Assembly: GCA_023150875.1 (NCBI GenBank)
Contig: JAKLKC010000016.1
Span: forward strand, 1-64,000
Source of the DNA: Myxococcota bacterium
Lineage (GTDB): Bacteria; Myxococcota_A; UBA796; UBA9615; JAKLKC01
Length of the DNA stretch: 64,000 bases
Direction: 5' to 3'
The notes under the pieces are model-generated. The model saw nothing but the letters and a program-made list of their open reading frames with translations. It had not been told where the DNA came from and ran no database searches. Shown one piece after another: positions 2,179 through 55,296 of the stretch. Made by a program: the position numbers and the translations under genes. Positions within the stretch are counted from its first letter, which is position 1; every line of letters begins with the position of its first letter.

Positions 2179-3519
2179 TCAGGATCCCGTGCACTGGTAG
2201 GTGAAGCTGACGATGCTGTCCCCGTCGGCGAGGTTGTTGGTCGTCCCCAGGCAGTCGGTGATCACGAGCTGGAGCTTGTACACGTAGTATTCCGTGCGGC
2301 CCTGGTATGCCGTCGCCTGCTCCAGGCTGACGGTCGTGCTGGGGCTGGTGGCAGAGTGGACCACCGCGTCCCCCTGGAGGACCACCCACTCGTAGGTGAC
2401 GGGATCGCCGTCGGGGTCGTAGGAGCCCTCGTCCAGGGCGTCCAGCTCGACCGTCTTGTTGTCGCACTTCGGGCACACGCCCGCGGTGCAGGTCACCGTG
2501 TCGTCGAAGAACTTGTCGCTCCCCGCTTCGGCAACGGGGGCCTCGTTGAGGGGGCGGGGCACCACGTCGAGCCAGGTCTGGGCCGGGGCGCTGTCCGCCT
2601 CGCCGTCGTTCACGACGAGCTGCACCAGGTAGGTGCCCTCGACGTCGGGGAAGAAGGTCGGCTCGGAGGCCGTCGGGTCGTCCCAGTCCAGCTCCCCGAG
2701 GGTCGAGCCGTAGGGAGGGAGGACCACCCGCCAGTCGTAGGTCAGGGGGTCGCCGTCGGGATCGCTGCTGGTCTCCCCGGAGAGGCCGACGTCGTAGCAG
2801 GTCCACAGGTCGGTCCGGGCGGCGATGTCCGCCGTGGGGGGCTGGTTGGTCGAGGCGACCTCTACGGCGACGAAGTCCGGGAAGCTGGTGCCGACCGCGT
2901 TGGTCACCGTCAGCGAGGCGAGGTACTGCCCCGGGGCGTCGGGCTCGAAGCTCGGGGTGGCGCCGTCGGCGCCTCCCAGGGAGTCGGGCCCCAGGTTGGA
3001 CCGGGTGGGCACCGTCACCAGGCTCCAGGAGTACGTCAGGGCGCCACCCAGGGGATCGGTGCTTCCGCTGCCGTCGAAGGAGACCGTGTCCCCCTCGGTG
3101 ACGGAGACGTCTGCTCCCGCCGCCGCGACGGGGAGCAGCGCCGACGCGTCGACGTCCACCGCCACGAAGTCGGCGAGGCTGTCCAGCGCACCGTCGTTGA
3201 CGGTAAGCCGGACCACGTAGACCCCCTCGACGTCGGGCACGAAGGTGGTGGTGGAGGCGTCGGCGGACTCGTTGGGCTGGAACGGGGCGACGCCTTCGAG
3301 AGCGCTGCCTTCGGGTGCGCGCTCGATGGACCACCGCCAGGTGAGGGGGGCGTCGGCGTCGTCGGTGTCGGCGCTCCCGGTGCCGTCCAGGGAGACGTCG
3401 ATGCCGACGGCGCCGAAGGTGTCGGGTCCGGCGTCGGCCATGGGGGGGGCGTTGCCCGAGTCGGTGTTCTGGCAGGCGCCGAGGAGGAGGGCGAGGAGGA
3501 CGGGATGGCGGCGGGTCAC
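2179..3519 (-). CDS. PKD-domain lipoprotein (second gene of a PKD pair)
   Basis: The 446-residue protein starts with a lipoprotein signal peptide (LLGAC). It then has about four PKD-like beta-sandwich units, each with a D-x-D/DGDPLTYxW core and a DVEGxYxVxLxVNDG ending. PKD folds are usually structural or adhesive modules on the cell surface; no catalytic module is present. A Cys cluster (CTAGVCPKC) sits in the last third. The GTG start is one base after the TGA of the upstream homologue at 3521-4855, so the two are co-transcribed and probably translationally coupled. They look like tandem paralogues. Confidence 0.8.
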   Translation of the reverse strand: MTRRHPVLLALLLGACQNTDSGNAPPMADAGPDTFGAVGIDVSLDGTGSADTDDADAPLTWRWSIERAPEGSALEGVAPFQPNESADASTTTFVPDVEGVYVVRLTVNDGALDSLADFVAVDVDASALLPVAAAGADVSVTEGDTVSFDGSGSTDPLGGALTYSWSLVTVPTRSNLGPDSLGGADGATPSFEPDAPGQYLASLTVTNAVGTSFPDFVAVEVASTNQPPTADIAARTDLWTCYDVGLSGETSSDPDGDPLTYDWRVVLPPYGSTLGELDWDDPTASEPTFFPDVEGTYLVQLVVNDGEADSAPAQTWLDVVPRPLNEAPVAEAGSDKFFDDTVTCTAGVCPKCDNKTVELDALDEGSYDPDGDPVTYEWVVLQGDAVVHSATSPSTTVSLEQATAYQGRTEYYVYKLQLVITDCLGTTNNLADGDSIVSFTYQCTGS

Positions 3520-52488: not shown

Positions 52489-53892
52489 TCATACGAACTG
52501 CTGGATGAAGGTGCGCCCTCTGAGGAGGGTGACGGCGTGACGGCCCGGCAGATCGAGCATCTGCGCGACGGCCGCGGGGGTGGTGGCGTCGGCGTCACCG
52601 ACCCGCAGGATCACGTCGCCGGCCTGGAGGCGCCCCTCGGCCCGTCCGCCTCGGCCGACCTCGGTGACCACGACCCCGCCGCCGAGTCCGATGCGGGCGA
52701 GGGAGTCCTGGAGGTCGTCGGGGGTGGGCTCGAGGCGGATCCCCACCGCCTCGGACACCGCCGGCCGCCTGGCCAGCTCCTCGGGATCCCCGAGGCTGGC
52801 GATCAGGACATGCCCCTTGCCGTCCCGGAGCAACTCGATCTCGACGGGCGCCCCCACCGCGTACAGTCCCAAGGCCCTCGCCGCGGCGTCCGCGTCGTTC
52901 ACCGCCGTCCCCCCGAGGCGGAGCAGGACGTCGCCGGGTCGGATCCCCGCACGGGCGGCGGGGGAGTCGTCCAGCACGTCGGTGATGGGGACTCCCGCCG
53001 GGACTCCCGGGGGCCGGGTGAGGCCGAAGGTCACCCCGAGGTAGCCCCGGGAGAACCTCCCGTGCTTCTCCAGGACCTCCACGATCCGGGCGATCACGTT
53101 CGAGGGGATGGAGAACGCCAGCCCCTGCCCGTTCGCCTGGACGAGGGTGTTCATGCCGATCACCTCCCCCGCCATGTTGAACAGGGGGCCGCCACTGTTC
53201 CCGGGGTTGATGGCGGTGTCGGTCTGGATGAAGTCGTCGGGTCCCTGGCGGAATCCCAGGGCGCGCCCCTTGTAGCTGACGATGCCCGTGGTCAGGGAGT
53301 GGCCGAGGCCGAAGGGGTTGCCGATGGCGAAGACCTGGTCGCCCACCTGCACGCGGTCGGAGTCCCCGAGGACCACGGGCTGGAGCCCCGCCGCGCCCTC
53401 GATCCTCAGGAGCGCGATGTCGGTCTCCTCGTCGGCGCCCACCACCGTCGCGGGGTGCTGGCTGCCGTCAGCGAGCTGGACGAAGACCCGGGCGGCGTGG
53501 TCGGTGACGTGGTGGTTGGTGAGCACCGAGCCGCCGGCGTCCAGCAGCAGCCCCGATCCCCGACTCTCCCGAGTCTCCTCGGGCACGTCCACCTGGGGTC
53601 GGCCCGTGAAGGGGTTCCAGGAGCGCCGGGGCCTGCCCCGGAAGACCTGGACGGTGGCGATGTTCACGACCGAGGGCTTGAGGCGCCGGTAGAGGTCGGT
53701 GAGGGGAGCGGGAGGGGGGAGGGGATCGCCGGGCAGGGCCGCGGGACGGATGAGCCCCGGACCCGCCGATCCGGAGTCGGAGCCGCGCCCTCCGTCCGCG
53801 CCGTCCAGGGCCAGCCGGTACATCCACGGCGACGCCCAGATCCCGGCGACGAAGCACAGGACGCCGATCAGGAAGACCCAATGTCGCGGCAT
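52489..53892 (-). CDS. HtrA/DegP-family serine protease with two PDZ domains
   Basis: The 467-residue protein has an N-terminal membrane/signal segment, a trypsin-like domain with the catalytic triad His128 (LTNHHVTDHA), Asp158 (ETDIALL) and Ser233 (NPGNSGGPL), and two PDZ domains (about 290-375 and 385-460). It is a periplasmic quality-control protease. The RBS is weak. The 182-bp palindrome at 53911-54092 lies 19 bases before its start codon, so it would fall in the leader of the mRNA if transcription starts upstream of it. Confidence 0.95.
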   Translation of the reverse strand: MPRHWVFLIGVLCFVAGIWASPWMYRLALDGADGGRGSDSGSAGPGLIRPAALPGDPLPPPAPLTDLYRRLKPSVVNIATVQVFRGRPRRSWNPFTGRPQVDVPEETRESRGSGLLLDAGGSVLTNHHVTDHAARVFVQLADGSQHPATVVGADEETDIALLRIEGAAGLQPVVLGDSDRVQVGDQVFAIGNPFGLGHSLTTGIVSYKGRALGFRQGPDDFIQTDTAINPGNSGGPLFNMAGEVIGMNTLVQANGQGLAFSIPSNVIARIVEVLEKHGRFSRGYLGVTFGLTRPPGVPAGVPITDVLDDSPAARAGIRPGDVLLRLGGTAVNDADAAARALGLYAVGAPVEIELLRDGKGHVLIASLGDPEELARRPAVSEAVGIRLEPTPDDLQDSLARIGLGGGVVVTEVGRGGRAEGRLQAGDVILRVGDADATTPAAVAQMLDLPGRHAVTLLRGRTFIQQFV

Positions 53893-53910
53893 TCGCCTGG
53901 CCCGGCATCA

Positions 53911-54092
53911 AGGGCCCCTTCCACAACCCCGCACCTGCTGCGGCGAACGATGCGGGGCGGCTGCGGCGTCGCTGCACCCCACTTCTCCTGCGACGTACTG
54001 TCCAGTACGCCTCGGAGGAGCGGGGCCCCGCTCCTTGCATCCACCTCCGCCTCACTCGCCTCGCGACGGTGCCAGGTCGTGAAAGGGGCCCT
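53911..54092. repeat. 182-bp centred palindromic element with terminal inverted repeats
   Basis: AGGGCCCCTT (53911-53920) and its complement AAGGGGCCCT (54083-54092) bound the element. A central dyad CGTACTG-TC-CAGTACG (53994-54009) lies exactly at its midpoint. The two arms also pair imperfectly along most of their length, for example GCACCTGCTGCGGCGAACGAT with the complement of its counterpart. It lies in the 510-base gap between htrA and the sigma-factor gene, most of which has no gene. It looks like a MITE-like or long-hairpin element. Confidence 0.8.
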
Positions 54093-54329
54093 AAAGGTTC
54101 GAAGCTGCTACCGCTTGGGCGGGTTGTCAAGGGCCGCGGCCCCGGATGCCACGCGGCGGGCCCCGGCGCGAAAGGACGCACCCGTGGCGCCGAAAGGGAC
54201 TCCGGGCCGGTCGAGCGGGCGATCCCTCATCGGAGGGAACCCGGCTTGCCGTCGCGGAGTCCCAGTGTTCGGCGAGCCGGTCGGACCGGGCGTCGGGATG
54301 CCCGCGCCCCCGGAGCGCCACGTGTAGGG

Positions 54330-54402: not shown

Positions 54403-55296
54403 ATGACGGCGCCGATCCCCATGTCCCCCTCCCCGCGGCCGGCCCCCCAGGGTCCGCGGCGGGAGGTGAGGGGGAGCGACTCCATCCGTGCCTACATGGA
54501 CCAGGTGCGGCGGGTGCCCCTGCTCACCCGCGAGCAGGAGGTCGAATTGGCGATCCGCCACCGGGACTGCGGGGATCCCGGCGCGGCCCGGCGGCTGGTG
54601 GACGCCAACCTGCGCTTCGTGGTGCGGGTGGCCCTGGGCTACCGGCGCTACGGCGTGCCCCTCCCCGACCTGATCCAGGAGGGGAACCTCGGCCTGATCC
54701 AGGCGGTGGAGCGGTTCGATCCGACGCGGGGGATCCGCCTGATCTCCTACGCGGTGTGGTGGATCCGGGCCTACATCCAGTCCGCGGTGCTCCGCTCGTG
54801 GTCCGTGGTCCGGGTGGGCACCACCCACACCCAGAGGCGCCTCTTCTACCGTCTGCCGTCGGAGGCGGCGGCGGCGGTGGCGGGGGGCGGTACCGCCGGT
54901 GGAGCGGAGGAGCTGGCGGAGCGGCTGGGGGTCCCCCCGCGGGAGGTCCGCGACATGCAGCGGCGCCTGGCTGGCCGGGACGTGTCCCTGGACGCGCCCG
55001 TCGACGACGACCGGGGCTTCTCGCCCATGGACCGCCTCGCCGACGGCGGGCAGGACCCCGAGACCGAGGCCGCGGACGCCCAGGACCGGGCGGCGAGGCG
55101 CGATCGGCTCCGGGACGCCCTGGGCTGCCTTCCCGCCCGGGAGCGGGCCATCGTCGAGCAGCGTCACCTCGCCGAGGAGCCCCGGACCCTCGCCCAGCTC
55201 GGCGAGGATCTCGGACTTTCCCGGGAGAGGGTGAGGCAGCTCGAGTGCGCCGCCCTCGTCAAGCTCCGCAGAGCCCTGTTCGCCGACGCAGCCTGA
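54403..55296 (+). CDS. rpoH: RpoH-like alternative sigma factor (sigma32 group)
   Basis: The 297-residue sigma70-family protein has region 1.2/2 with REQEVELAIRHRDCGD, LVDANLRFVVRVALGYRRYGVPLPDLIQEGNLGLIQAVERFDPTRGIRLISYAVWWIRAYIQSAVLRSW (region 2, with the -10 recognition helix), then a region 4 HTH ending LGEDLGLSRERVRQLECAALVKLRRALF. Length and the SYAVWWIR segment fit heat-shock sigma factors. It would direct chaperone and protease genes; lon, htrA, clpX and a dnaJ-like gene lie within 8 kb. The ATG follows GGAGG. Confidence 0.85.
   Translation: MTAPIPMSPSPRPAPQGPRREVRGSDSIRAYMDQVRRVPLLTREQEVELAIRHRDCGDPGAARRLVDANLRFVVRVALGYRRYGVPLPDLIQEGNLGLIQAVERFDPTRGIRLISYAVWWIRAYIQSAVLRSWSVVRVGTTHTQRRLFYRLPSEAAAAVAGGGTAGGAEELAERLGVPPREVRDMQRRLAGRDVSLDAPVDDDRGFSPMDRLADGGQDPETEAADAQDRAARRDRLRDALGCLPARERAIVEQRHLAEEPRTLAQLGEDLGLSRERVRQLECAALVKLRRALFADAA

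Follow-up and report, generated by a model that had tools for sequence, protein, structure and literature searches.

The hairpin element at 53911-54092 of the window (the whole 64,000-nucleotide stretch of Myxococcota DNA analysed here) is best read as a non-autonomous MITE of IS5 type that has a conserved, strand-polar interior and sits beside htrA as a hitch-hiker, a reading to which we give a probability of roughly 0.78. It is short, lacks a transposase gene, shares its terminal inverted repeats (TIRs) with other copies, is bordered by target duplications and is dispersed in many copies, as MITEs are. The earlier note had seen in it the anatomy of a MITE-like or long-hairpin repeat, a view now backed by further copies in the genome, by TIRs and target duplications, by conserved folding and by IS5-type partners elsewhere. 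We propose that the element reached its TNA site, 18 bp from the htrA start codon, by cut and paste through an IS5-type DDE transposase supplied in trans. The interior is a hairpin of constant size in which selection would act on one folded strand (here the minus strand), as RNA or single-stranded DNA, and that strand would most likely help the element itself, in replication, transposition or host tolerance, and not htrA.

The ends carry the 10-bp inverted repeat described in the earlier note, AGGGCCCCTT / AAGGGGCCCT, which is perfect, and over 25 bp they are 84% complementary. The 16-bp dyad (CGTACTGTCCAGTACG, CGTACTG-TC-CAGTACG) lies at 53994-54009 with its centre at 54001.5, the exact midpoint of the element as claimed, and the imperfect pairing reported along the arms takes in the whole 182 bp, which folds as a single hairpin. 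As plus-strand RNA this hairpin has an energy of -98.9 kcal/mol (z -5.07), reached by none of 200 shuffles, and as minus-strand RNA -129.8 kcal/mol (z -9.47); the GC content is 71%. The outermost A and T more likely belong to a 3-bp target duplication, so that the element proper spans 53912-54091. This duplication is imperfect: the left copy, placed by the TNA rule seen in other copies, would be CAA at 53909-53911, and the right copy, one base different, TAA at 54092-54094. Comparison of the ends and of other copies delimits a left TIR, GGGCCCCTTCCACAAC, at 53912-53927 on the plus strand and a right TIR, GGGCCCCTTTCACGAC, at 54076-54091 on the minus strand.

Profile matches support both flanking genes, and with them the placement of the element between htrA and an RpoH-like gene. 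The htrA/degP-type gene (52489-53892, minus strand) encodes a Do/HtrA-type protease with Trypsin_2 and PDZ domains, which scores 322.8 bits against TIGR02037, under the cut-off of 416. The divergent RpoH-type (sigma-32) gene (54403-55296, plus strand) matches NF005143 above cut-off and TIGR02392 with 301 bits, short of the 323 required. A Lon gene lies past htrA, on the far side from the element. Elsewhere in the window, a 64-bp near-perfect hairpin (-53.7 kcal/mol) occupies 3353-3416; its sequence is not obviously related to that of the element.

Searching the whole source genome (a 6.9 Mb assembly in 180 contigs, 98% complete), a check that the earlier note had suggested, revealed that the element is not unique. 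Two related families of about 182 bp together account for about 40 copies and fragments. The window copy belongs to family 1, as its GGGCCCC subtype, on the strength of genomic copies, fold and covariation; other full-length copies of this family lie on C94, C114, C93, C100 and C180, and one on C134 is truncated by the contig end. These listed copies are 74-96% identical, and many partial copies exist besides. Family 2 came to light through a covariance model of five family 1 copies, which retrieved ten full-length members and one more diverged; nucleotide search then contributed another full-length copy, also diverged, and some fifteen fragments. Family 2 matches family 1 in length and orientation, and family 1 copies align to its consensus with scores about 5-8 standard deviations over shuffles. 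Its TIR is ACTCGGGTTTCGCA, that of family 1 A/GAGCGCCTTTCACAAC or A/GGGCCCCTTTCACAAC. A third family is represented by a single copy on C170.

Target-site duplications, which the earlier note had proposed to look for, are present in both families and measure 3 bp. In family 1 they are of TNA type (TTA/TTA at C100 and C158, TAA/TAA at C180) and exact in three of seven two-ended copies; in family 2 they are CWG (CAG/CAG or CTG/CTG), exact in 7/11. Some copies are recent, with identities up to 96% in family 1 and of 96-99% in family 2. No ORF is conserved across the copies, and the 182-bp element holds no transposase gene.

Several copies depart from this plan. The family 1 copy at C180:11806-12073 (L128:3807-4074) has a GC-rich hairpin of about 85 bp nested in its apex, while derivatives of 50-78 bp on C99 (L168), C3 (L170) and C158 (L072) have lost the apical part and kept both ends, those on C99 and C158 with exact target duplications. 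Solo TIR ends on C92, C90, C180:42149 and C136 were considered as ends of an autonomous element and rejected, since they look like decayed copies; the TIR 14-mer alone gives no more matches than chance. Many copies coincide with contig ends (L162-L167, L009, L003), which indicates that the repeats fragment the assembly and that the real copy number is probably higher.

The link to IS5 comes from other genomes. A scan for the 17-mer TIR over 84,980 genomes returned 28 loci, roughly the chance expectation. At L111, in a Thermomicrobiales MAG, an 857-bp element carries the exact 17-bp family 1 TIR at both ends, is bordered by a TAA duplication and encodes, apparently in two frames, a transposase of IS5 type (DUF4096 and DDE_Tnp_1). 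Relatives of this element on plasmids bear the annotations ISAzba7-like, ISMra6-like or IS5 and have AGAGCGCC-like TIRs and TTA/TAA duplications. Because the family 1 TIR and its TTA/TAA duplication thus recur on IS5-family elements, we take the element to be an IS5-type MITE; on sequence comparison the TIR of family 1 is part of an IS5-type system. The match of TIR and duplication concerns family 1 alone, through L111 and, as regards the TIR start, through ISAzba7-like elements; family 2 yielded no partner IS. The ISAzba7/ISMra6-like elements, which are IS427-type by size and organisation, share with family 1 the 3-bp TTA/TAA duplication and a TIR starting GAGCGCC or near it, identical over 17 bp in L111, but at 854-859 bp they contain a transposase gene and no hairpin interior.

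No autonomous element with the same TIR was found in the source assembly, where neither PF13340 nor the L111 transposase as query gave a match. A partner in the same genome is usual for a MITE and is not required, and the copies in the source genome may by now be orphaned. The genome's only PF01609 (DDE_Tnp_1) gene, on C178, was considered as mobiliser and discarded, as it looks IS4-like and has other ends, CATAGGTAGG. Viral contigs yielded 17 single TIR matches, never paired. In Salinicola, Gilvimarinus and an Acetobacteraceae MAG, the 17-bp TIR of family 1 occurs on short palindromes (L096, L104, L106, L113, L117, L120, L114), which mostly have TTA flanks but interiors other than that of the element.

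The earlier note had counted a lack of conserved folding as an argument against any mobile or regulatory role; instead, the hairpin pairs are held by compensatory double changes. In family 1, double changes affect 17 of 68 pairs, while slid controls reach no more than 5; over families 1 and 2 and the C170 copy they affect 36 of 55 (controls at most 20), and 92% of cells are paired. A comparison of family 1 with family 2 leaves 26 pairs the same and shows 25 with double and four with single changes. Two modules stand out: module A, formed by CCTGCTGCGG (53934-53943), near-invariant in all three families of the source genome, and CCTCGCGACGG (54059-54069), and module B, formed by GCGGCGTCGC (53963-53972) and GCTCCTTGC (54030-54038), all given on the plus strand. 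Between the two families 41 of 42 module positions are conserved, against 62 of 143 elsewhere, for module limits picked after viewing this alignment; as family 2 was not retrieved via the modules, the comparison is free of search bias. Rfam covariance models gave sub-threshold matches only, none above gathering score.

That the hairpin shape is retained while most of the sequence has changed suggests a role for one folded strand, with the caveat that covariation and strand polarity were both measured on structures predicted from the sequences themselves. Template switching or gene conversion can homogenise the arms of imperfect palindromes; a single event then appears as a double change, and covariation arises without selection. 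In favour of this, the stems here are long and GC-rich, and apical deletions have taken place at C158, C99 and C3. Homogenisation should, however, remove mismatches, whereas the mismatched modules persist between families and the mismatches share one polarity, and we consider it rather unlikely as the source of the covariation.

This polarity is pronounced. With module A masked, the plus strand has 150 C.T mismatches against 13 G.A and 78 A.C against 30 G.T, and C.T outnumbers G.A in each of the 18 elements. Plus-strand C.T and A.C correspond to G.A and G.U pairs on the minus strand, and the minus strand gives the better fold in 16 of the 18. In a palindrome inserted both ways, mutation alone should not yield such a bias, and we read it as selection whose target is probably the minus strand in its folded form, be it RNA or single-stranded DNA.

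A dedicated recombinase of the folded single strand (TnpA of IS200/IS605, RAYT/REP or integrase/attC-like), with the modules as its recognition site, would explain both the strand-polar mismatches and internal-loop modules that stay conserved amid changing stems and TIRs, and would suit a genome in which no DDE partner was found. Integron attC sites resemble the element as imperfect hairpins whose boxes are conserved, whose stems vary freely and whose mismatches are strand-polar, but no cassette is seen at its copies and it is flanked by target duplications. To our knowledge, single-strand transposases leave no such duplications, and no gene is linked to the copies. Exact TIRs together with 3-bp TNA or CWG duplications are the hallmark of DDE transposases of the IS5/PIF-Harbinger type (PMC4482050), and a recombinase of the folded single strand is therefore unlikely.

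The place of the element upstream of htrA is as the earlier note had it, with 18 bp separating it from the ATG, but the regulatory role suggested there found no support. A cis-regulatory hairpin of the htrA leader (a thermometer, an attenuator or a protein-binding cruciform) in a stress-response region would accord with this position, with a better-folding strand that is also the sense strand of htrA, and with a neighbourhood that holds lon, htrA and an rpoH-type gene. Against it, other full-length copies of both families adjoin unrelated genes in both orientations, and no promoter- or terminator-like site, including a T-run terminator, was found at the element; we judge this reading very unlikely. 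What ties htrA to the element is solely its landing place, although an effect on htrA is possible. A conspicuous hairpin in the leader of a stress gene may thus be a hitch-hiker, which calls for caution.

Several copies start exactly at a native stop codon and leave the gene complete, as at genes for an ACP, a FAD oxidoreductase and a response regulator. A native C|TGA stop is the site of 4 of 11 two-ended family 2 copies, and in some family 1 copies the stop codon lies within the target duplication. The elements could accordingly have spread as transcript ends or RNA-processing sites, but the CTG+A and TNA targets themselves overlap stop codons, and insertions at other places within genes do not survive; a stop bias is thus expected without any function. 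Orientation to the upstream gene is also mixed (5 against 4, counted by hand) and a T-run is lacking, which makes this explanation improbable. The placement fits target specificity combined with loss of harmful insertions.

No published description of the element family was found in the open literature. ERIC, Correia/NEMIS, RUP and QMITE repeats are 100-200 bp long, with TIRs, a predicted long stem-loop transcript and, often, positions at gene flanks (PMC2229807, PMC10969869), all of which the element resembles. They are usually A+T-rich with TA ends or, in QMITE2, 7-9-bp duplications, whereas the element has its high GC content and TNA/CWG duplications and, unlike them, one interior common to families with different TIRs. 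PIF/Harbinger, NuwaI and NuwaII, eukaryotic relatives of IS5 in the PHIS superfamily, make TWA, CWG and C|TNA|G duplications, the same set as families 1 and 2, and the part of their description available mentions no comparable interior (PMC4482050). REP/REPIN sequences with RAYT are likewise palindromic, extragenic and multi-copy, but REPs measure 20-40 bp (PMC3733652) and bear a GTAG or CGTC tag; at about 180 bp, with TIRs and target duplications, the element was ruled out as one by size and TIR anatomy. MITEs are normally defined by their TIRs while the interior drifts; here the reverse seems to apply, the interior architecture being kept across families and genomes while TIRs, stems and duplications vary. 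If our reading is true, this is a testable case of selection on the folded strand of a mobile element, with a covariance signature that could find such elements where BLAST fails.

Absence from relatives, which the earlier note would have taken as evidence against a mobile or regulatory role, held for the family itself in the genomes searched, but not for related families. Nucleotide search of 58 genomes found no family 1 copy outside the source genome, the paired-TIR pattern located family copies in the source genome only among 71 genomes of the class, and the plasmid records searched had no match. The module A pattern, with a gap restricting inner length to 100-130, located hairpins of 177-199 bp in G065, G135, G220, G239 and G332, and related hairpins in G014 and G149 whose outer ends bear insertions or resist delimitation. 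Across these seven further genomes of the phylum, the relatives retain the size, module A (invariant because the pattern imposes it) and often the apical hairpin. Their TIRs are complementary but mutually different, several being flanked by TA, CTAG or TCA. The inner length is 114-119 nt, and the apical motif of the window copy, CGACGTAC..GTACGCC, recurs with at most two substitutions in five of the genomes (G135, G220, G065, G332, G149); the motif, the TIR complementarity and the inner length beyond its 100-130 bound are not consequences of the pattern.

The reversed pattern, as a control, gave five matches in 379 genomes. Four candidates (L178, L179, L185, L188) were dismissed as chance matches, none having complementary ends like the others or the conserved apex and three of them showing no better fold on the strand favoured by true copies, and neither of two matches in viral contigs is a symmetric hairpin. 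A consensus fold over the whole phylum set was not obtained, the stems not being alignable. We tentatively suggest, at somewhat short of even odds, a phylum-wide superfamily of hairpins of about 180 nt in which a strand-specific folded interior (of fixed length, with two internal-loop modules and an apical hairpin) is selected, TIRs and target specificity are swapped between families and the folded strand, as RNA or single-stranded DNA, functions in the life cycle of the element. A genome of the same order (G001; L059, L062, L063, L066, L067) harbours a multi-copy hairpin repeat of about 100 bp that shares the apical motif GGCGTGCT..AGCACGTCGCA with the family 1 copy on C93 and may be a shortened relative of the element.
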